Of a stretch of 35,052 nucleotides of DNA, positions 1 through 31,966 are shown in pieces. Each line of letters begins with the position of its first letter. The stretch's first letter is position 1. Below the pieces are notes generated by a model that was given only the letters and a program-made list of their open reading frames with translations, searched no databases and was not told the DNA's origin. A program made the translations under genes and the position numbers. This DNA comes from a virus: IMG/VR virus record IMGVR_UViG_3300013099_000914, positions 1 through 35,052 of that record; one strand, 5' to 3'.

Positions 1-3000
1 ATGGAGCCTGACTCCGGCTATATGTTCGTGGCCATGGGGAACCGGAAGATCCCCCTCTACTCTGTGCTCAATGCGTCCGGCGTGTCGGACGAGAAGATGA
101 AGAAGGCCTGGGGGGAATCGAGCTTTGCGTCCAATCGCAAGAGGGCTAAGCCCGAGAAGGACCTGACCTCCTTCCACATCGCGTCCGGCAAGGGGAAGCC
201 CGAGGCTGGGGCCGACATGAAGATGGAGCTTCAGCGGTACTTCGCTGGGACTGAGATGGATCCCGAAGTCACCAAGGCCACCTTGGGGAAGGGGTTCGCT
301 CAGGTCAATGAGGACGTCCTGTTCCGTGCCTCCAAGAAGTTGATCTCCGTCAGCGCGGGGAACACCAAGGCTGATCAGATTGACTCCCTTGAGTTCAAAG
401 AGTTGTGGACTGCCAAGGATCACTTTTCTGAGCGGTTGAGTGCCTCCAAGAACGACATCCACAACAGGGTTCGGAAGACCCTCAACAAGGACAAGATCCA
501 AAAGTCTATCCGTGATGGGGATGTAAGGGTTCGCGACATCATCATGCCGGACCTAGTGCAGAAGCCCTTGATGCATGTGTTCGGGACATCGCTGTCCTCC
601 AACTCGAATCAGATCAACCCCCTGTCGATGCTGTCGGATAGATCCCACGTGACCATCATGGGTCCAGGCGGGATTCAAAATGAGCATGCCATCTCAGGCC
701 AGAACACATCGCTCGATCCTTCTCAGCTCGGCTTCGTCGATCCGATATACACCCCGGAGTCAGCGCCGGGTACATCCATGCACCTGTCGGCAGGTACGGT
801 CATCAAAGATCGGAAGCCCCACACGAAGCTATTCAACCTGAAGACAGGGAAGGTTGAGTCAGTAACCCCTCAGCAGGCAGCAAGGAGCACCGTCGTGCTC
901 CCCGATCAGGTGAAGTGGGTGGGCGGTAAGCCTCGCCCCAACCAGAACATGGTTCGAGTCTCCGACCACGAGGGGGAGATCCGTGATGCCCCCTTCAAGG
1001 ATGCGGACTACACCCTCATCGATGCCTCTCAGGTCTTCGCTGTCGAGTCGAACCTTGTCCCCTTCATACAGAACGACTCGGCCCACCGCTCGACGATGTC
1101 TGCACGCCACATGGGGCAGGCCATCAGTGTTACGGGTCGAGAGGCCCCTGTGGTTCAGGTGGAGTCAGCTCCGGGACAGACCTTCGAGAAGCTGGTAGCT
1201 GGCCGCTTCCTAGCGCACAAGACTCCCGTCGATGGGATGGTGCTTGCTGTCGAGAAGGATCACGTAGTCATCAAGGGTTCGGACGGGAAGAAGCATGAGG
1301 TCGACCTCTACGACCACTACCCGCTGAACGATCCCAAGGCGATGCTCCACTCAACCCCCCTCGTGAAGCCGGGGGACAAGGTCAAGAAGGGGCAGTCCCT
1401 CGCCGACAACAACTTCACGAAGGACGGGCAGCTCGCCCTGGGCACCAACATCCGTACGGCCTACCTAGCGAACGGGACGAACCACGAGGATGGGGTTGTC
1501 CTTTCGGAGAGTGCTGCGGCCAAGCTGGGATCGGAGCATCTCTACAAGCCGTCGCTACTGTCATCTCCTGACACGGTCTTCGACATGAAGAAGTTCTTGG
1601 CACACAAGCCCAAGGCTTTCGGGTCGGCTCAGCTCAAGAACCTCGGGACAGAGGGGGTTGTTGCTGTGGGGGCCACAGTCAACGCAGGTGATCCCCTCAT
1701 CCTGGCGCTGAACCCGGAGACGAACCCGGACAGCATCGACGTGAAGATCATGTCCCGCCTCTCCAAGAAGACGCGGCTGGACTACAAGAACGCGAGCCTT
1801 ACCTGGGACCACGAGCATCCCGGCGAGGTCGTACGCGTCACCAAGAAGGGCAAGAGCTGGGTCGTCCATGTGAAGACTAAGGAGCCTGCCATTGTCGGTT
1901 CCAAAATCTCCACCCGCCATAGTGCCAAGGGCATCGTGGCTGAGATCCTCCCCGACAATGAGATGCCTCAGGACCAGAAGGGCAAGGGTGTGGGCATGCT
2001 CATCAACCCTGTGTCTGTGCCTGGCCGGATGAACCCTGGGCAGATCTTGGAGACTGTCGCTGGGAAGATCGCCGAGAAGACGGGGAAGCCCTACAAGGTC
2101 AAGAACTTTGATGGCAACAAGGACTACCTGGCAGACCTGAAGAAGGACCTGAAGAAGCACGGCATCCCAGAGACCGAGACCCTATTCGACCCGAAGACTG
2201 GGCGGAAGCTCGGTAAGGTTACGGTGGGGCCCCACTACGCCTTCCAGCTGGTCCACCAGATCGACAAGAAGACTCACGTGCGTCACGGCGGCTTCTATGT
2301 GAAGGGCCTCGCACCCCACATCCGTTACGACCAGAACAAGGTTCCCCGCGGTGGTGGCGAAGGTGGGGCCCAGTCTCTGGGCGCACTCGGCATGTACGGG
2401 GCGCTGTCGTCCGGGCTCAAGGACAATCTCCGGGAGATGCAGACCTGGAAGTCCGACCAAGAGCAGGCGGAGAACGTTTGGAACTCCCTGACCCGAGGAG
2501 AGCTTGTACCTCCCCCCCAGGTTCCCTTCGTCCACAACAAGTTCAAGGCCCAGATGACAACCATCGGCCTCAACCTGGACAAGCAGGGGAACCACCTTCG
2601 TCTCATCCCCAACACGGACGAAGAGGTGATGGCGCTGAGCCGCGGCGAGGTGACCCGCCCGGACATGGCAGTCATCGCCAAGAACGTGAAGCCGGAGAAG
2701 GGTGGCATCTTCGACACCCGGATCTTCGGGGGGCAGAATGGTAGGCACTGGGGGCACGTCAAGCTCGTCGAACCCATGCCCAACCCTGTCTTCGCCAAGC
2801 CCATCGCACAGCTTCTCGGGGTCAAGCCTGCTGAGATTGAGCTGGTGGTAGCGGGTAAGCAGACCCTGCCCAAGTACGGTACCGGACCGAAGGCCATCCA
2901 CAAGGCACTGAAGGCAGTGAGTGTTACGGCCAAGATTCAAGAGGTCGAGAAGCAGCTCAAAGATCCTCGGGTGAAGGGGACAGAACTCAACAACGCCAAC

Positions 3001-5754
3001 GCTCTGCACAAGAGCCTGAGGATGTTGCAGGAGACCAAAACCCACCCCTCCAAGGCGTTCTTGATGCAGAACGTCCCAGTCATGCCTCCGATCTACCGCC
3101 CCTTCGTCTCCTCGCCGGACAAGACAGACCGCATCGATCCGATGAACAACTTGTACCGCCGGCTCGGGCAGGTGAACGTGAGCTTGCAGGCGAGTGACAA
3201 GGACAAGGTTCCCTACGACCTGACCCTGGCGAACCGCGGTGACCTCTACAAGGAGATGCAGAACCTCTTCGGCACCACGCCCAAGGGGAAGAAAGCCTTC
3301 GACATCGACATCCGAGGCACGAAGGAGATCCGGGATAGGACTCTGCCCGGTGTTCTCCACATGGTTGCCGGGGCCTCACCGAAGGACGGCTTCTTCCAGG
3401 ACAAGATGGTCGGGAAGAAGCAGGACTACACGGCCCGAGCCACCATTGTGGCTGACCCCAGCCTCGGTCCTGATGAGGTGGGTGTCCCCAAGAAGATTGC
3501 CATCGAGCTATTCCGACCTCATGTCTCTCGGCATCTCATCCGCTCGGGGCTCAACCCCATCGAGGCTCAGGAGAATATCCAGAAGCGATCACCCAGGGCC
3601 TTTGCAGCTCTGGAAAAGGTAGTTGAGAACCACCCTGTCTTGCTGAAGCGGGACCCCGTGTTGCACGCCTATGGACTGGTGGGGCAGAACGTGAAGCTCA
3701 CCAACTCCCGCGCCATCAAGGTCAGCCCCCTCATCCTTCCGCCCATCAACGGTGACATCGACGGTGACCAGGTCGCCCTCATGGTTCCCCTGTCTGAGAA
3801 GTCGAAGGCGGAGGTGCGGAAGATCCTACCTTCCCAGCGCCCCATCTCAGATGCCTCTGGGGATGTGCTGTTCAAGCCCACCAACGAGTCGATGCTCGGC
3901 CTCTACCGATCTTCCTTGAGGAGTCATGGCAAGGTCACGGGGAAGAAGTTCCTGTCCTTGCGGGAGGCAGAAGCAGCGTTCACACAGAACCGCATCGACC
4001 TTCCCGACACCATCACCATCGGGAAGGCGCGGACGACCCTGGGTCGTGCCCGCATCGCTCAGGTCGTGCCCGACAAGTTCAAGCAGGAGATTCTCACAGG
4101 TAGCGCACCCTTCGGTAAGAAGGAGATGCACGAGGTCTTGAAGCACACTGCTGTGAAGGAGCCCAAGCACTTCGCTTCCGTGGCGTCAGGCCTGAGTCAG
4201 CTCGGGTTCAAGATGGCCTACGAGTCCGGGCACAGCGTGACCTTGGACGACCTGGAGCCCCTGAGGCCTGAGCGGAAGCTGATCATCGACAAAGCGAAGC
4301 GTCAGGTCGCCACACTCAAGGGTCCCCAGGCTGGAGAGAAGGCGACCGACATCTACCTGGACGCTACCCGGCAGCTCCACACGGCCTACGACAAGCACTA
4401 CGAGAAGTTCCCCACCAATATCTCCGACATGGCCAAGGGTGGGATCAAGTCCAAGAAGCCGCAGTTCCAGGGCATGGTCATGGCCCCTATGCTGGTGCAG
4501 GACTACAAGGGCAGGCCCTCGAAGGTCCCGATCACCAAGAGCTTTGCTGAGGGCATCAGCGTTGGTGACTACTGGATGCAGTCCCAGGGTGCTCGGCGCG
4601 GAGTCATCCAGAAGGTTGATGGTATCTCGGAGCCGGGGTACTGGACCAAGCTCATGGTGCAGGTGAACATCGATCAGCCGGTCACCAACAAGGACTGCGG
4701 TACGCGCAATGGCCTCATGATGCCTGTGTCCAACCGGGACATCATGGATCGACACCTCGCCTCCCCCGTCAAGCTGGGTACCCGGGTTCTCCCTGCTGGA
4801 ACCACGGTCACTCCTGAGCTTCAGCGTGCCTTCGGTAAGGCTAAGATGAAGTCGATCGCTGTGCGGTCTCCCTTGAAGTGCCGGCAGCCTCAGGGTGTGT
4901 GCGGTGTCTGCATGGGGCGTCACCCCAGCGGACAGCATTATGAAGTCGGAGAGAATGTGGGGTTGGCCGCTGCTCAGTCTCTCGGTGAGCGGGCTGCCCA
5001 GATCATGCTGAGGCAGACCCACGGTGGGGGGCTGGTCACAACCGACAAGCAGGTTATTGATGACTTCGACACGGTGAAGTCCCTCTTCGCCATGCAGCGT
5101 CAGCGTCGGCCACACCAGGCACCCTTGGCTACCCGAGCAGGCACGGTAGTGAAGGTCGAGGCTCAGAAGCAGGGCGGGTGGGCGATCTATGTCTCCGGCT
5201 CGAAGAAGCCCTTCTACTCTCGGAAGCGTCCCCTCACCCACATCAAGCCTGGGTATCACTTCAAGAAGGGTGAGAAGCTGACCCAAGGTGACCCGAACAT
5301 GCACGACCTCCTCAAGACCAAGGGTCTCGAATCGGTGCAGGACCATATGGTCCAGCGCATCGGAGGCATCTATGGTGGGGAAGGGATCAAGCAGAGGCAC
5401 GTCGAGCTGGCGGTGCGGAATGCTACGGGCCTGGTGCGTGTCGCTGATCCCGGGGACCACCCTAGCTTCGTGCGCGGGGACTACCTTCAGAAGTCTGTGG
5501 TGGATGAGGTCAACCGCAATGTCCTCAAGGGCAAGAAGCCCATCCGTGCGAACACGGTGCTGAAGAGCATCGCTGAGATCCCTCGGGCTCGCCAGAAGGA
5601 TTGGATGGGTCGGCTGATGACGAAGAACCTGGGGGAGGTGGTTACGACCGCAGCTCAGCAGGGTCAGAGGTCAAACCTTCATGGACTCCACCCCATCCCG
5701 GGGCTGGCCTATGGTAAAGAGTTCGGCCGGGGCAAGGGTCCGGCAGGATACTAG
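1..5754 (+). CDS. Single-chain multisubunit-type RNA polymerase, beta and beta' fused
   Basis: DNA-dependent RNA polymerase of the two-barrel type. Residues 8-40 match the bacterial beta region around E. coli residues 200-230 (RKxP..LL.A). Residues 194-257 match the fork/rifampicin region (NPLS, GPGG, PI.TPE). Residues 630-690 hold the two beta active-site lysines (K635, K643), and about 755-870 match the beta C-terminus. Beta' begins near residue 878 (GEV..P). The catalytic loop is NGDIDGDQ at 1250-1257 with all three aspartates. A bridge-helix match (QGARRG) precedes a zinc site of C1566, C1627, C1634 and C1637. The trigger loop is at 1654-1677 with H1674 and R1671. The beta' N-terminal zinc finger is absent. 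No alpha, omega or sigma gene is seen in the window. The ATG is the first base of the window, and about 200 residues of beta are missing before it, so the true start may lie upstream. The stop abuts the spike-like gene. Confidence 0.95.
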   Translation: MEPDSGYMFVAMGNRKIPLYSVLNASGVSDEKMKKAWGESSFASNRKRAKPEKDLTSFHIASGKGKPEAGADMKMELQRYFAGTEMDPEVTKATLGKGFAQVNEDVLFRASKKLISVSAGNTKADQIDSLEFKELWTAKDHFSERLSASKNDIHNRVRKTLNKDKIQKSIRDGDVRVRDIIMPDLVQKPLMHVFGTSLSSNSNQINPLSMLSDRSHVTIMGPGGIQNEHAISGQNTSLDPSQLGFVDPIYTPESAPGTSMHLSAGTVIKDRKPHTKLFNLKTGKVESVTPQQAARSTVVLPDQVKWVGGKPRPNQNMVRVSDHEGEIRDAPFKDADYTLIDASQVFAVESNLVPFIQNDSAHRSTMSARHMGQAISVTGREAPVVQVESAPGQTFEKLVAGRFLAHKTPVDGMVLAVEKDHVVIKGSDGKKHEVDLYDHYPLNDPKAMLHSTPLVKPGDKVKKGQSLADNNFTKDGQLALGTNIRTAYLANGTNHEDGVVLSESAAAKLGSEHLYKPSLLSSPDTVFDMKKFLAHKPKAFGSAQLKNLGTEGVVAVGATVNAGDPLILALNPETNPDSIDVKIMSRLSKKTRLDYKNASLTWDHEHPGEVVRVTKKGKSWVVHVKTKEPAIVGSKISTRHSAKGIVAEILPDNEMPQDQKGKGVGMLINPVSVPGRMNPGQILETVAGKIAEKTGKPYKVKNFDGNKDYLADLKKDLKKHGIPETETLFDPKTGRKLGKVTVGPHYAFQLVHQIDKKTHVRHGGFYVKGLAPHIRYDQNKVPRGGGEGGAQSLGALGMYGALSSGLKDNLREMQTWKSDQEQAENVWNSLTRGELVPPPQVPFVHNKFKAQMTTIGLNLDKQGNHLRLIPNTDEEVMALSRGEVTRPDMAVIAKNVKPEKGGIFDTRIFGGQNGRHWGHVKLVEPMPNPVFAKPIAQLLGVKPAEIELVVAGKQTLPKYGTGPKAIHKALKAVSVTAKIQEVEKQLKDPRVKGTELNNANALHKSLRMLQETKTHPSKAFLMQNVPVMPPIYRPFVSSPDKTDRIDPMNNLYRRLGQVNVSLQASDKDKVPYDLTLANRGDLYKEMQNLFGTTPKGKKAFDIDIRGTKEIRDRTLPGVLHMVAGASPKDGFFQDKMVGKKQDYTARATIVADPSLGPDEVGVPKKIAIELFRPHVSRHLIRSGLNPIEAQENIQKRSPRAFAALEKVVENHPVLLKRDPVLHAYGLVGQNVKLTNSRAIKVSPLILPPINGDIDGDQVALMVPLSEKSKAEVRKILPSQRPISDASGDVLFKPTNESMLGLYRSSLRSHGKVTGKKFLSLREAEAAFTQNRIDLPDTITIGKARTTLGRARIAQVVPDKFKQEILTGSAPFGKKEMHEVLKHTAVKEPKHFASVASGLSQLGFKMAYESGHSVTLDDLEPLRPERKLIIDKAKRQVATLKGPQAGEKATDIYLDATRQLHTAYDKHYEKFPTNISDMAKGGIKSKKPQFQGMVMAPMLVQDYKGRPSKVPITKSFAEGISVGDYWMQSQGARRGVIQKVDGISEPGYWTKLMVQVNIDQPVTNKDCGTRNGLMMPVSNRDIMDRHLASPVKLGTRVLPAGTTVTPELQRAFGKAKMKSIAVRSPLKCRQPQGVCGVCMGRHPSGQHYEVGENVGLAAAQSLGERAAQIMLRQTHGGGLVTTDKQVIDDFDTVKSLFAMQRQRRPHQAPLATRAGTVVKVEAQKQGGWAIYVSGSKKPFYSRKRPLTHIKPGYHFKKGEKLTQGDPNMHDLLKTKGLESVQDHMVQRIGGIYGGEGIKQRHVELAVRNATGLVRVADPGDHPSFVRGDYLQKSVVDEVNRNVLKGKKPIRANTVLKSIAEIPRARQKDWMGRLMTKNLGEVVTTAAQQGQRSNLHGLHPIPGLAYGKEFGRGKGPAGY

Positions 5755-6882
5755 ATGGCCAACTCACGAGGCTCACCCAGCGATAGTAACTTCTCGCGGT
5801 TCCGCTGCGAGGAGATGGTGATCACGAACGTCGACAAGAGGATGTGGACGATCGACGCCGAGTCCCGTCACACCGCCAAAAAGGTCAACGACATCCAGTG
5901 CCTGGTCCCCTACCATCACTTCGAGGGTGGGGAGGGGATCCACTTCCTTCCTGAGGTGGGGGCCATCTGCTACATTGCATGGCCCAGCGACAACACCGCG
6001 CCCTTCATCATGGGGTTCAAGGGGGCAGCGTCCCAGGTAGGCTCCATCGATACCGAGGGTGACCCGCAGGGCTCCACAGCTACGGAGGCAACAGGCTCAC
6101 CTTCAGGGGTGAGTTTCAGGAGCAACAGGCCCAACCTTCTCCCCGGTGACATCGCCATGACGACTCGGGATGCCAACTTCATCATCCTCCGACGCGGTGG
6201 GGTGTTGCAGCTCGGGGCTACCGCTGTCTCGCAGAGGATCTACATCCCGATCCTCAACTACATCAAGGACTTCTGCGAGAACTACAGCATGTCCACCTTC
6301 GGAGGGGACATCGCCTGGACCGTGGAGCGTTCGGAGAGTGACCCCTCTGGGAATGCGCCGGCCTCCTACACCTTCCACATGAACGAGTTCGCTCAGGATG
6401 AGAAGGCCTCGGTCCGAGTCCGACATTTCCCCTTGGCCGCCCCTGGTGGGGGTGAGAAGGCAGCGTGGGAAGTCCATGTTGCCAAGAACAATATCGATCG
6501 GGACTCGGGGGAGGTCACCTCGGAGACCTACAGCCTTTCGATCCTCATGGATGGCTCCAAGACCGAGGTGGTAGGGGCGAACTATGACCTGACCATCAAG
6601 GGGAACCAGACCGTCACCGTTGAGGGGGATCGCCAGGTCGCCGTCAAGGGTAAAGAGCAGCACGATGTCGAGGGGGACTACATCGTCAAGGCAGGGCCTC
6701 GGGTGGCCTTAGAAGCCATGGGTGTCTACCTGGGACCCAATGCATCAATGCCAGCCGTACTTGGCACACCCCTGATGATCTGGCTCTCTACCCACACTCA
6801 CCCTGTGGCGGGGGCCCTAGCGAGCCCCCCTGCTGCACCACCCCCGAACTCTATTCTCTCTCAGATTGTCAAGCTCAAGTAG
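5755..6882 (+). CDS. Baseplate spike / gp5-VgrG-like protein
   Basis: 375 aa. The N-terminal part (about residues 40-90) has the alternating pattern of the gp5/VgrG OB-fold, including a segment on a constant-width pore protein (EVGAICYIAWP) followed by PFIMGF. The C-terminal third (about 280-320) has short repeats rich in G, V, T and D (TVTVEGD, QVAVKGK, HDVEGDY), typical of the triple-stranded beta-helix needle. The end carries HTHPVAG (about 347-353), a sequence often seen near the C-terminus of such spikes. No lysozyme domain is apparent. It should sit at the centre of the baseplate and pierce the host envelope. The ATG follows the polymerase stop with no gap, and an AGGA 6 nt upstream lies inside the end of the polymerase gene, so the two are probably co-translated. 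Confidence 0.8.
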   Translation: MANSRGSPSDSNFSRFRCEEMVITNVDKRMWTIDAESRHTAKKVNDIQCLVPYHHFEGGEGIHFLPEVGAICYIAWPSDNTAPFIMGFKGAASQVGSIDTEGDPQGSTATEATGSPSGVSFRSNRPNLLPGDIAMTTRDANFIILRRGGVLQLGATAVSQRIYIPILNYIKDFCENYSMSTFGGDIAWTVERSESDPSGNAPASYTFHMNEFAQDEKASVRVRHFPLAAPGGGEKAAWEVHVAKNNIDRDSGEVTSETYSLSILMDGSKTEVVGANYDLTIKGNQTVTVEGDRQVAVKGKEQHDVEGDYIVKAGPRVALEAMGVYLGPNASMPAVLGTPLMIWLSTHTHPVAGALASPPAAPPPNSILSQIVKLK

Positions 6883-10505: not shown

Positions 10506-10704
10506 GCGTCATGCGGAACTTCTTCGGGAAGGCTACGCTGAAGTGGGTGCGGTGGTACTTGTTGTACTGCTTCACGTAGTTCCGAACAGCGGACTTCATA
10601 TGGGGTTCCGGATCCATACGGAAGGCGTACCATCGGTGCCCCTCCTTCGTGGTGCGTGCCCCATGTACGATGTCCCCCAGGGCTTTGACCAGGAACCCAC
10701 TCAT
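10387..10704 (-). CDS. Probable small basic protein encoded on the minus strand
   Basis: 105 aa from the ATG at 10704; a longer form could start at 10758. The first two thirds of the minus-strand reading frame use the G/C-ending codons typical of this genome (TAC, AAG, CAC, TTC, CGC), and the product looks like a folded basic protein (GHRWYAFRMDPEP, VRNYVKQYNKYHRTHF, PKKFRMTLKRR). The last 35 codons lose this bias, become rich in Q, N, K and T, and overlap the plus-strand gene ending at 10505 tail-to-tail. Without this gene, 10506-10702 would be a 197-nt hole in a region otherwise without gaps. The start overlaps the terminase start head-to-head by 2 nt. No good ribosome binding site is visible, so confidence is moderate. 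Function unknown; the basic helices could bind nucleic acid. Confidence 0.5.
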   Translation of the reverse strand: MSGFLVKALGDIVHGARTTKEGHRWYAFRMDPEPHMKSAVRNYVKQYNKYHRTHFSVAFPKKFRMTLKRRQSRRKTSGQGAEDPRTRHNPRQSQKKNPTTPQSQQ

Positions 10705-12538
10705 GGCATCTAGGCTGAACGATTTCTCTGACGACTTCGACAAGGGTGCCTCCACCAAGCGCAGGGTTGTAGACCCATTCTACCAGTCTCGGTCACAAAA
10801 AAGGATGCGGAGGCACACCCTGAAGATGCTGCCGTCCGATTGGGTGAGTCGGTTCGTGAGGATCAAGGACGGGGACACGGGTAAGGTCAAGAAGATCGAC
10901 TTCTCTGAGCGGAAGTATCTCATCCGCCCCTACAACTCCTCGGCCAAGAAGATGCTCCTCATGACGAGTCGTCAGGCGGAGAAGTCCACCACCCTGGGGA
11001 ACAAGCTCTTCGCCCTGAGTGGGATGCGCCCCATGTACACGTCGCTCTTCGTGTCGCCCTCGGCGATGCAGACGACAGTGTTCTCCCGGACAAGGCTCGA
11101 TGACATCGTCACCGTCAGCCCCCTGCTCCAGGCCATGGTGACCAAGGGGAACACCTGGAACATCCTGGAGAAGGTCTGGGGCAACATGTCCATGATCTAT
11201 TTGCGATATGCCTTCCTTACGGCTGACCGTATCCGAGGCCTCGCGGTCAACGCTATCTTTGGCGATGAGCTTCAGGATCTCCTGGTCGACAACATGCCGG
11301 TCATCGAAGAGACGGCCTCTCACCAGAAGGATCCGATCTACGTCTACTCCGGGACACCCAAGTCTCTCGACAACAACATCGAGCAGTACTGGGCCAAGTC
11401 TTCGACCATGACTGAGTGGGCCATCCCCTGCGAGAGGCATGGGACCCCGAAGAATCCTGCGTCCTGGCATTGGAACATCCTGGGGGTGAAGAACCTCGGA
11501 CTCAGTGGCCCGATTTGTGAGCAGTGCGGCGGACCCATCAACCCCGAGCACCCCTACGCACGGTGGGTGGAGACGAACCCGGGAGACCCGAAGCGTCCGG
11601 AGACCCGCCCCGAGTTCGAGGGGTACCGCCTCTGCCGCCTGATGGTCCCATGGTTCTGGAAGGACCCAGGCAAGTGGAAGGAGATCCTCGAAGCCTACGA
11701 GAGGTATCCTACCGCCCAGTTCATGAACGAGGTCTTGGCGGTCTCGTATGACTCAGGTACCAAGCCCATCACCCGGGCGGAGTTGATCCGAGCCTGTGAC
11801 TCCAAGTACACCAACGACCTGGCGCAGGTGTCGGAGCTGGCCAAGACACACCCCATGTACTTTGGGATCGACTGGGGCACAGGGCAAAAGGCCTACACGG
11901 TCCTGACAGCCTGGTGCTACTGCCGAAGCGATGACGCTCTCCAGTGCGTCTACATGTACCGCTTCGAGGCACAGGAAGCTGACCCGGAGGTGCAGGTCGA
12001 GATGATCGAGAGGCTTGTCTCCGACCTGCATGGCAAGTACATCGGAGCTGATTACGGGATGGGCTTCTACCAGAACAAGAGACTCACCTCGACGTTCGGT
12101 CCGCAGCGTATCCATGTGTTCCAGTACGCAGCTCGTCTACCTATGAAGGTGGCCTACAGCAGCAAGCTCCACAGGTACCTGGTCTTCCGCACCCCTCTCC
12201 TGGCGGACATCTTCCATGCCCTGAAGAGGGGGAAGCTCCGCCTCCCTGACTGGGAGGCAATCAAGGAGCCCTTCGGATCGGATGTCCTCTCAATCTTCTC
12301 CGAGTATTCCGAGACGATGAAGATGATCAAGTACGACAAGCCGAAGTCAGCGACCGACGACTCATTCCACGCGATGGTCTATGGCGTCTTGGCCTCCTTC
12401 CTCGATCACCAACGGCCGGACATCATCACCCCGACCCAGGACAGGTCGGCTCAGGCCAGTGACGAGTACACCCTCTTTGAAACGTACGCTCAGGATGTCG
12501 ACTCCGAGGAGATGGAAAACCCGAACCAGTGGGGGTAG
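10703..12538 (+). CDS. Terminase large subunit
   Basis: 611 aa from ATG 10703. It packages the genome: an ATPase motor plus nuclease acting at the portal of the prohead. The Walker A-like motif is at residues 89-96 (SRQAEKST, K94). Walker B is at about 182-189 (VNAIFGDE, D188 and E189). A coupling-type motif is at about 215-219 (YSGTP). A zinc-binding insertion has C243, C272 and C275 (CEQCGG). The nuclease domain begins at about 386 with FGIDWGTG (D390), followed later by GADYGMG. The insertion with cysteines and the overall order resemble terminases of large myophages and the GpA type. The Walker A lacks the usual glycine before lysine (E in its place). An in-frame earlier start at 10649 exists, but 10703 is preferred because the upstream residues look non-coding in this frame. 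Confidence 0.92.
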   Translation: MASRLNDFSDDFDKGASTKRRVVDPFYQSRSQKRMRRHTLKMLPSDWVSRFVRIKDGDTGKVKKIDFSERKYLIRPYNSSAKKMLLMTSRQAEKSTTLGNKLFALSGMRPMYTSLFVSPSAMQTTVFSRTRLDDIVTVSPLLQAMVTKGNTWNILEKVWGNMSMIYLRYAFLTADRIRGLAVNAIFGDELQDLLVDNMPVIEETASHQKDPIYVYSGTPKSLDNNIEQYWAKSSTMTEWAIPCERHGTPKNPASWHWNILGVKNLGLSGPICEQCGGPINPEHPYARWVETNPGDPKRPETRPEFEGYRLCRLMVPWFWKDPGKWKEILEAYERYPTAQFMNEVLAVSYDSGTKPITRAELIRACDSKYTNDLAQVSELAKTHPMYFGIDWGTGQKAYTVLTAWCYCRSDDALQCVYMYRFEAQEADPEVQVEMIERLVSDLHGKYIGADYGMGFYQNKRLTSTFGPQRIHVFQYAARLPMKVAYSSKLHRYLVFRTPLLADIFHALKRGKLRLPDWEAIKEPFGSDVLSIFSEYSETMKMIKYDKPKSATDDSFHAMVYGVLASFLDHQRPDIITPTQDRSAQASDEYTLFETYAQDVDSEEMENPNQWG

Positions 12539-13167: not shown

Positions 13168-15569
<2,402 letters not shown>

Positions 15570-22958: not shown

Positions 22959-24068
22959 ATGGCAGACGCGAAGGAAATGCTTCTCGCGCAGCTCTCGGAT
23001 CCCGGGGCCAAGGCCAAGATTGCTGCGCAACTTGGTGGCTACATCCGGGACCGGCTTCGTGAGGCGAGCTATACGGAGCGTGTGCTCCCGCCGCAGACGG
23101 TCGATCGAAGCCAGTGCCAGGTGTCCGTGAATCACGACGCGCTCGTGAAGATCGAATACTTGGAGCCGAAGAGCCGCGCCATGGTGGTCACCTTCCGAGG
23201 TGAGCCCCGTACGCAGTTCATTCGTGGTGAGAAGGTCGAAGTGCCTTTCATCACGATCATGAGCGACATGTTCCAGAAGCCGGAGCAGGAGTTCCTGGCT
23301 TACGCCTTCCCCATCGGCAAGGTCATCGAGCAGAACGCTGTTCGTGACATCGGTGAGGTTCAGGATCGTGAGTTCACGCTCCACATCGAGTCGGCATGCC
23401 AGGCTCTCCAGACGGAGGCCAACGGCGGTGCCGTCACTTCGCTCAACGCCACGGGCATCGCTGCCGGTTCGGTCGTCGAGCACTCGGTCGTCAAGGGTGA
23501 GCTGGCTCGTGTGGCCAGCGATGATGACGCCACCGTGCGTCCCATCCAGCGTCCCGACATCGTGGCGCTCATGAAGCTCCTCGACCGCAACCGCTTGGAG
23601 TCCGACCTCATCCTCCTGACCACTCCCGACTGGGACGACATCCTTCAGTGGACCGTCGAGGATCAGGGCGACAAGATCCAGTCCGAGACCGTCGTCAACG
23701 GCTGGAAGTACAACTTGCTCCTGGGCAAGCGGTACGTCCGGACCATCAAGACGGACATCCTTCGTCCCGGGAACGTCTACGCGTTCACCAGCCCCGACTT
23801 CCTCGGTCGGTTCTACATCCTGAACAACATCAAGTTCTACATCGACAAGGTGATCAACCTGATCAAGTTCGTCGCGTGGAAGGATGTCGGGATGTCCATC
23901 ATCAACATCGCCGCCGTGCGGAAGCTGGAGCTGTACTCCGGTGACGCCACGAGCAACGACGCTGATGCCATCCTCACCTCGGTCACTCCGGTGGGCGAAG
24001 AGGACATGGGCGCTGAGAACAACCGCGCAGCACAGCGGCAGTTCTTCCCGACGGTGGTGTCCTTCTAA
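22959..24068 (+). CDS. Major capsid protein, HK97-fold type
   Basis: 369 aa. An N-terminal arm of about 45 residues, mostly helical (EMLLAQLSDPGAKAKIAAQL), precedes a beta-rich core. The C-terminal half has the pattern of HK97-fold capsid proteins of large myophages: LLTTPDWDDIL near 220, LGKRYVRTIKTD near 250, FYILNNIKFYIDK near 285, and DVGMSIINIAAVRKLEL near 310. It has one KIAA tetrapeptide at about residues 19-24 that could mark removal of the arm by the protease encoded at 17535. A strong AGGAGG is 8 nt upstream of the start, and tandem hairpins follow the stop, as expected for a highly expressed gene. No crystal-fold evidence is available from sequence alone. Confidence 0.8.
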   Translation: MADAKEMLLAQLSDPGAKAKIAAQLGGYIRDRLREASYTERVLPPQTVDRSQCQVSVNHDALVKIEYLEPKSRAMVVTFRGEPRTQFIRGEKVEVPFITIMSDMFQKPEQEFLAYAFPIGKVIEQNAVRDIGEVQDREFTLHIESACQALQTEANGGAVTSLNATGIAAGSVVEHSVVKGELARVASDDDATVRPIQRPDIVALMKLLDRNRLESDLILLTTPDWDDILQWTVEDQGDKIQSETVVNGWKYNLLLGKRYVRTIKTDILRPGNVYAFTSPDFLGRFYILNNIKFYIDKVINLIKFVAWKDVGMSIINIAAVRKLELYSGDATSNDADAILTSVTPVGEEDMGAENNRAAQRQFFPTVVSF

Positions 24069-30943: not shown

Positions 30944-31293
30944 GCGAGATCAATGGGGTGACCCTTCAAGCCATGAGTGAGGAGCTGGTCGCTCTCAACC
31001 ATGAGCATCAACTGGCCAAGGAAGCCCTCTTTGGTGCGCTCGGCAGCAAGGTGCTGAGTGGGGCCGGCAAAGCAGTCAGCTCTCTCGTTTCCAGGGGTGG
31101 CCGAGTCGGTCGGGCAGCGGGTAAGGCCCAGTCTGTCCTCGGCAAGGGCGTCAGCAAGGGCGTGAACCGGTTTGGCGGAAAGGCTGGACTCCATAAGGCC
31201 GTAGGCGCTGCTACGGTAGGTGCGGGTGCCGTAGGTGCGGGTGCCGTAGGTGCTGGACTCGGACGGGCTACGGCCCCCACCAACCGGAGGTAA
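30940..31293 (+). CDS. Gly-zipper protein with shared N-terminal motif and VGAGA repeats
   Basis: 117 aa. The family motif appears as GVTLQAMSEELVALNHE (about 6-22), then LAKEALFGAL. The centre is basic and Gly/Ser-rich (SRGGRVGRAAGKAQSVLGKG). The end consists of VGAGA repeated three times, encoded by a 15-bp tandem repeat, then a short basic tail. No enzyme motif. Probably a paralogue of the neighbouring small proteins. Confidence 0.6.
   Translation: MSEINGVTLQAMSEELVALNHEHQLAKEALFGALGSKVLSGAGKAVSSLVSRGGRVGRAAGKAQSVLGKGVSKGVNRFGGKAGLHKAVGAATVGAGAVGAGAVGAGLGRATAPTNRR
31216..31256 (+). repeat. 15-bp tandem repeat
   Basis: GTAGGTGCGGGTGCC occurs at 31216-31230 and 31231-31245, followed by a partial third copy. 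It encodes the VGAGA repeats in the gene at 30940 and could change length by slippage. Confidence 0.85.
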
Positions 31294-31294
31294 T

Positions 31295-31966
31295 ATGGTC
31301 TCCCCCCTACAGATGAGGGCGATGCGTCTAGAGATAGGCAAGATCGCGGAAGCCGTGGGGGGTAGCTCACCTCCTACGGTGAACTCGATCGCAGCTCTTC
31401 AGAAGAGGATGCAGCCTGGGGACATCCTCGTGATGACCGGGGCTCCTCCTCCCAAGGGGAAGGAGAACACCCCTGTCGGGCTGGTCAACAAGCTCTTCGG
31501 CGCAGCTAGCCGAAAGCTCCAGGGGGGCGAGTACGTTCACTCGGCGGTCTACACGGGGAAGGGCCACATCACTGAGATCCGAGGCGGCGAGGACATGTCC
31601 CGCAAGCCCTTGAAGATGGGGCTGAAGTACCTCGATGCTCAGGTCGTGCGTCCGAACGTCGCACCGAGAAAGCGTCAGCAGGCTCTGAAGAAGCTCGATA
31701 AGTTTGTCGAGGAGGGCGCGACGTACGACTACAAGACCTTGGGCGCAGCTGCTGTTGCCGGACCCTTCGGTCTCAAGGGGAAGTCCTACCGAAGCCGGAT
31801 CAATGACAACCAGCTCATCTGCTCCAACATGGTCAGCCGTGCGTACAGCGGTGTGAAGTTCAACAAGGACAAGGACCCTGAGCTGATGATGCCTGCGGAC
31901 TTCCTTCGCTCGCACAAGGTCTCGCCCGTGGCCACTTTCCATAACCCCGATCGTGGTGCTGGATGA
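31295..31966 (+). CDS. Permuted NlpC/P60-like (papain-fold) hydrolase with family N-terminal motif
   Basis: 223 aa from ATG 31295, with GGAGG 5 nt upstream. The N-terminus VSPLQMRAMRLEIGKIAEA (2-20) is the tag shared with four neighbouring proteins. Then comes a catalytic domain with the layout of permuted NlpC/P60 (YiiX/YaeF-type) enzymes: PGDILVMTG at 41-49, EYVHSAVYTGKGHITEI at 79-95 with H82 as the likely catalytic His, and LICSNMVSRAY at 174-184 with C176 as the likely nucleophile. Enzymes of this fold cut amide or ester bonds, for example in peptidoglycan or acylated substrates. Within a virion cluster a cell-wall-degrading or host-protein-modifying role after ejection is possible. The catalytic roles are inferred from the pattern. 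The stop overlaps the next gene as ATGA. Confidence 0.75.
   Translation: MVSPLQMRAMRLEIGKIAEAVGGSSPPTVNSIAALQKRMQPGDILVMTGAPPPKGKENTPVGLVNKLFGAASRKLQGGEYVHSAVYTGKGHITEIRGGEDMSRKPLKMGLKYLDAQVVRPNVAPRKRQQALKKLDKFVEEGATYDYKTLGAAAVAGPFGLKGKSYRSRINDNQLICSNMVSRAYSGVKFNKDKDPELMMPADFLRSHKVSPVATFHNPDRGAG

Follow-up and report, generated by a model that had tools for sequence, protein, structure and literature searches.

The window analysed here is a complete IMG/VR record of 35,052 bases, and it begins inside a gene in which the β and β′ subunits of RNA polymerase follow one another in a single polypeptide, as the original prediction had proposed (Table 1). The contig breaks off within the frame: the start and about 147 codons lie outside the window, and the ATG at base 1 is merely the first codon present, not a true start. 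Full-length relatives start with GTG, and their complete chain has about 2,070 residues. β domains occupy residues ∼100–855 and are followed by β′ domains at ∼866–1905, with no linker domain between them. The Pfam matches stand in order along the chain, with Rpb2_3 (203–263) and Rpb2_6 (444–766, E 8.5e-51) in the β half and Rpb1_1 (866–1112), Rpb1_2 (to 1276, E 5e-21) and Rpb1_5 (1518–1682) in the β′ half. When the window protein was compared with the PDB using phmmer, solved β′ chains were matched with E-values down to 6e-95, which excludes a chance match. The joint had been predicted near residues 870–880 but was found at about 855–866, where β-type PFVHNKFKAQMTTIGLNL passes through DKQGN into β′-type HLRLIPNTDEEVMALSRGEV; in the alignment, only these ∼5 residues lie between the positions corresponding to the last residues of bacterial β and the first of β′.

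Alignment to the E. coli subunits showed that the D-x-DGD triad and the equivalents of K1065/K1073, R425 and E813/D814 are all kept. K635 and K643 of the window protein align with K1065 and K1073, and D1252, D1254 and D1256 form the metal triad of the β′ barrel, which is invariant in alignment A1. The bridge helix (GARRG), the trigger loop QIMLRQTHGGG including its His, and the four Cys of the second zinc site are also present. Judged from sequence, the triad, the two lysines, the bridge helix and the trigger loop together satisfy the sequence criteria for a two-barrel DNA-dependent RNA polymerase; RNA synthesis itself is inferred. All fused members in the alignment have lost the β′ N-terminal zinc domain, and the part of the β′ coiled coil that contacts sigma is changed. 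Rifampicin contacts are altered in the alignment (Q513S, F514N, D516N, H526D, R529H and S531T), and the fused enzyme is therefore predicted to resist rifampicin. The claim that the enzyme carries much bacterial-like sequence held in that it aligns to the bacterial subunits, but identity to twelve bacteria is only 24–28% for each half, with no group favoured, and the first zinc domain is missing. An AlphaFold2 model of residues 300–1425, running through the joint, gave a pLDDT of 86.8 and a pTM of 0.78; the hairpin at the joint is ordered in this model (pLDDT about 93), and its closest PDB matches are bacterial β chains (E 2e-38).

Table 1. Features of the 35,052-base window (positions on the window; residue numbers refer to the truncated polymerase chain).
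Feature	Position	Strand	Remarks
Fused β–β′ RNA polymerase gene, 5′-truncated	1..5754	+	1917 aa, uninterrupted frame, TAG stop
β part, residues 1–855	1..2565	+	Rpb2 domains 3 and 6; E496/D497; active-site lysines K635, K643
β/β′ joint, residues ∼856–870	2566..2610	+	Predicted ordered β hairpin, pLDDT about 93
β′ part, residues 856–1917	2566..5754	+	Without N-terminal zinc-binding domain
Catalytic motif NGDIDGD, residues 1250–1256	3748..3768	+	Asp 1252, 1254, 1256
Bridge helix motif GARRG, residues 1530–1534	4588..4602	+	
Second zinc site	4693..4911	+	Four Cys kept (DCGT 1565–1568; C1627, C1634, C1637)
Trigger-loop N-terminal helix, residues ∼1662–1678	4984..5034	+	AAQIMLRQTHGGG region
T4 gp5-like baseplate spike/hub gene	5755..6882	+	ATG at the base after the polymerase stop
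Terminase large subunit (TerL)	10649..12538	+	Matches PF05876
DNA gyrase B/topoisomerase II large subunit	13168..15126	-	Start probably ATG at ∼15108
CTATCAG-N8-GGAGG..ATG	15106..15137	-	Sole promoter-like box of the clade-specific type in the window; before the gyrase B gene
Major capsid protein	22959..24068	+	

The spike, TerL and capsid genes confirm that the polymerase gene sits in a phage structural cluster, as had been anticipated. In most relatives the start of the spike gene overlaps or abuts the polymerase stop. TerL was matched in 15 of the 16 records searched, the window's own among them, together with those of Salmonella phage Arash and Vibrio phage D69. The major capsid protein is 74–81% identical within the window's subclade and 25–30% identical in Arash and Vibrio D69. 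On the plus strand at 31250–31966, an enoyl-CoA hydratase-like family of PHROG was weakly matched. For questions of gene content, a set of thirty records of 117–208 kb carrying a fused-family enzyme was used, none of proven completeness. With that reservation, an α gene (PF01000) was detected in none of the thirty (13 of 14 control genomes were positive), nor was a second polymerase seen, each record holding a single Rpb1_2 frame.

A first scan of IMG/VR had returned nine relatives at 54–56% identity; a second, alignment-based scan gave 76 loci, partly on the same contigs. In-frame analysis resolved four forms of this polymerase family. The commonest is the full fusion of ∼1,985–2,170 residues, so that the expected rarity of such a fusion is not borne out by the 76 loci from the wider scan. 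The second form is a full fusion with an insert of ∼270–530 residues at the catalytic motif or at the β lysine motif (L075 and near-copies). In the third, found in Salmonella phage Arash and Vibrio phage D69, β is fused to the first third of β′ and the remainder is a second gene, and the fourth has an additional break ∼100 residues into β′ (L097, L098, L100 and L105). No member seen has a break at the β/β′ joint itself, and this includes those in which β′ is split. Inserts lie exactly at the catalytic DFDGD motif in L068, L071, L065, L082, L083, L086, L103 and L095. The L068 insert matched LAGLIDADG_3, with Intein_splicing below the Pfam cut-off; no intein domain was found by Pfam in the L075 insert. 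The inserts are probably inteins at two active-site positions, a reading that Pfam supports for L068.

Trees were built separately for β and β′ (fast trees with aLRT support), and in both the phage sequences fall together in one group on a long stem, in which the window's neighbours are L057, then L037, then L009/L006/L035. Support for the phage group is 98.6 in the β tree. In the β′ tree, the phage group together with the long-branched Cobetia phage Carin-5 has a support of 100. Carin-5 and Mycoplasmopsis were left out of second trees for their long branches; without Carin-5 the phage group is monophyletic in the β′ tree, for which no support values are available. The phage clade joins beside the longest bacterial branches and the trees lack an archaeal outgroup, so no claim is made on the depth of the clade. 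Carin-5 (L149), with its very long branch, has separate β and β′ genes next to a sigma gene; in Rhizobium phage Y65 (L148), β′ retains the first zinc domain. Both represent other phage RNA polymerase lineages.

These data bear on whether the fusion is real. Bacterial rpoB and rpoC adjoin, and phage-labelled records with bacterial rpoBC do exist (e.g. Acinetobacter phage MD-2021a), so that an assembly artefact reading through two separate genes, or contamination with host DNA, has to be considered. Complete, continuous frames were nevertheless recovered from dozens of independent IMG/VR contigs, with the sequence of the joint conserved, which rules out assembly error and upholds the proposal of a natural fusion. 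Host contamination was likewise ruled out: the separate phylogenies that had been suggested as a check put both halves in the same phage clade and not in any bacterial genus, and relatives have phage genes flanking the polymerase gene on both sides. The chance that the gene is an artefact of either kind is negligible. Among bacterial and archaeal genomes a single fused relative was found; the contig carrying it belongs to an uncultured MAG in which an ordinary rpoC is also present. Separately, CAKLQF020000005.1, AGRM01000005.1 and AFYI01000006.1 are filed as phages and carry ordinary bacterial rpoBC; they are either wrongly labelled or consist largely of host DNA.

Because the window opens within the polymerase gene and lacks the upstream region, evidence on the promoter of this gene comes from relatives only. 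Twelve distinct sequences from the window's subclade show TTGACC-N18-TANACT (TAGACT or TAAACT) ahead of the polymerase gene, with GTG following after 5–6 nt. The hexamers are near-invariant, whereas agreement in the spacer is near chance (30–50% in most columns). This strict pattern occurs once per record in 10 subclade records, at the polymerase every time; none was present in seven other full-fusion genomes searched, and the one site outside the subclade, in Vibrio D69, lies away from the polymerase gene. In the subclade genome G007, three looser sites (TTGAC-N17–19-TANNNT), candidates for more leaderless messages, were noted at 35255, 119229 and 149382, with a start codon 6–7 nt on; the products behind them are unknown proteins of 499 and 297 aa and one 62-aa protein, which by eye resembles a ribbon-helix-helix DNA binder and has no Pfam match. 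In other fused-polymerase subclades, a TANNCT-like box lies close before the polymerase start (L049, L054, L055, L062, L064, L065, L071 and L074), some of these loci also having TTCTTG further upstream; going by sequence, this is possibly a different host promoter.

A second type of box, CTATVAG followed by a Shine–Dalgarno sequence and ATG, occurs 3–18 times in each subclade genome of 149–195 kb and 1–3 times in shorter subclade records. Its consensus is CCTATMAGCA, a few bases before the Shine–Dalgarno sequence. Because the box was spotted through enriched words in G007, the case for its significance is carried by the other genomes and by a reversed control pattern, which gave no matches in the long subclade genomes. 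It is absent from the seven full-fusion genomes outside the subclade. Of 38 sites, nine immediately follow a T tract, where 1.2 would be expected, and in 9 of 10 subclade records a box on the opposite strand adjoins the host-type promoter of the polymerase. In G007, CTATVAG boxes stand at the head of small-gene arrays and replication blocks, with host-type promoters heading the polymerase block and another plus-strand block. No promoter island upstream of the capsid gene was seen by eye.

Canonical sigma (PF04542) was not found in the long genomes of the window's subclade that were searched; its region 2 was detected in seven of the thirty records, namely six of Arash type and the full-fusion genome G015. 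A divergent sigma-like gene was reached through PF04545. Its product in the subclade genome G009, of 263 residues, matches Sigma70_r3 above the cut-off (E 3.4e-9), with region 4 weak. A homologue in G007 (167912–168724; 33% identity, E 1e-33) lies directly behind a CTATCAG box; its Sigma70_r3 match is only below the Pfam cut-off, so its identity as a sigma rests on the alignment. Confirmation of the gene is confined to two subclade genomes, in one of which it has no CTATVAG box, and relatives at about 26% are present in Arash-type genomes. Another weak PF04545 match in G007 (161240–161329) was dropped, as it is not a homologue of the G009 protein.

A host-type start on the polymerase gene and a phage-specific start elsewhere suggest, at the level of sequence, a relay of polymerases. 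The gene product would serve as the catalytic core of a two-barrel DNA-dependent RNA polymerase that belongs to the phage and is made as one chain, and the fusion, by inference, would hold the two barrels together and make the host α dimer unnecessary. Host RNA polymerase would read the polymerase gene from its consensus-like promoter as a leaderless GTG message, a pattern present in relatives whose use is inferred. The fused core would then pair with the divergent sigma-like protein of the phage to read the CTATVAG boxes; boxes and gene are both found in relatives, and the pairing is inferred. Its putative targets would be the small-gene arrays and replication genes, a scheme resembling that of phage T7 with a multisubunit-type enzyme replacing the T7-type one. 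There are no expression or activity data, function and timing being inferred, and we judge this T7-like relay from host enzyme to fused enzyme to CTATVAG promoters to have about an even chance of being right. The fuller picture, in which an α-less one-chain polymerase started from a host promoter works with a divergent sigma and a −10-like promoter that are likewise the phage's own, and sister phages carry splits that preserve the joint and inteins in the active site, is offered as a tentative one. Transcription of the cellular kind would in that picture be pared down to two proteins.

Several observations count against the relay. Its promoter and sigma evidence is drawn from relatives, the window itself contributing one CTATCAG box, and a sigma gene needing a CTATVAG promoter would require a second start route. 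Neither type of promoter precedes the large capsid block of the reference relative, and coupling of the polymerase to the tail-spike gene fits late expression or packaging equally well. The main rival, which differs in timing, builds on this last point: a virion polymerase would be synthesised late, along with the tail genes, then packaged and injected together with the DNA, and would read the CTATVAG genes first, the structural operon headed by the polymerase gene being left to the host enzyme. The place of the gene at the front of that operon, the stop–start coupling to the gp5-like gene in most relatives and the placing of the two promoter types in G007 are all in keeping with this, and phage P23-45 offers a precedent, having virion and tape-measure-fused RNA polymerases with late genes read by the host enzyme (PMC10770324). 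A host-consensus leaderless promoter is, however, more typical of an immediate-early gene, and the chain has no fused targeting or tail domain. We rate packaging in the virion as the less likely of the two, though the sequence data do not decide between it and the relay.

CTATVAG could also be a box of the host enzyme, read with an alternative sigma, or a translation-linked element, in which case the promoters of the fused enzyme remain unseen. The box lies within a few nucleotides of the Shine–Dalgarno sequence, where a role in translation is conceivable, and its link to the enzyme is without biochemistry. Its absence from the full-fusion genomes outside the subclade is, on the other hand, what would be expected of an element tracking the enzyme; it is enriched behind terminator-like T tracts, where transcription must restart, and it heads gene blocks in G007. 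We consider it improbable that the box is not read by the fused enzyme.

Among known systems, the fused RpoBC models NF007172 and NF011417 (2,840–2,890 positions), which we take to be those of Helicobacter and Wolbachia, also place β and β′ in one chain. The Helicobacter and Wolbachia fusions are cellular enzymes and use α. The window protein scores 426 and 350 bits against these models and does not meet their cut-offs (5372 and 4632); the NCBIfam rpoC (454 bits, cut-off 963.5) and rpoB (253 bits, cut-off 801) models are not met either, and the complete relative P0005 fails too. The nearest described group is the mReC phages, for which β and β′ subunits were described and a fusion is unmentioned (Weinheimer and Aylward 2020, PMC7481178). 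They share with the window tailed-phage contigs, bacterial-like β/β′, a deep branch apart from cells and structural genes around the polymerase. Their selection required the motif NADxDGD (PMC7481178), whereas the window has NGDIDGD and its close relatives GGDIDGD, so that the mReC filter would have missed it. The mReC capsid (PF07068) and terminase (PF03237) families were unmatched by window proteins. The mReC group likely overlaps the wider fused family, although no direct comparison was made.

Other phage enzymes are further removed. The phiKZ/AR9 polymerases are also phage-owned two-barrel enzymes without α that use a short promoter box; they are divided among at least four polypeptides, and each phage has two such enzymes (PMC7598289, PMC7824862), whereas the window's family has one chain in one copy. 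The crAss-like gp66 and P23-45 gp64/gp96 hold both barrels in one phage polypeptide as well; these single chains are highly divergent and belong to another major two-barrel clade (PMC10770324), whereas the window enzyme aligns with bacterial β and β′ over nearly its full length. The isolates Arash (gp206/gp216) and Vibrio D69 have the same β–β′ joint and homologous TerL and capsid proteins, and differ in that β′ is broken after the catalytic domain, its C-terminal part being a separate gene, and in having a recognisable sigma (PF04542). No literature was found on phage Arash or describing this fusion, a search limited to open-licence papers and hence weak evidence of novelty; within it, neither the conserved full-length fusion nor the two-class promoter organisation was found described.

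If the interpretation is correct, these phages would possess a simplified, self-contained machine of bacterial type, with two barrels in one chain, no α, a small sigma and a short promoter. For laboratory work two isolates are available, Salmonella phage Arash and Vibrio phage D69, and one expressible protein would make it possible to test whether α is needed for assembly, how the β/β′ split arose and how promoter recognition evolved.
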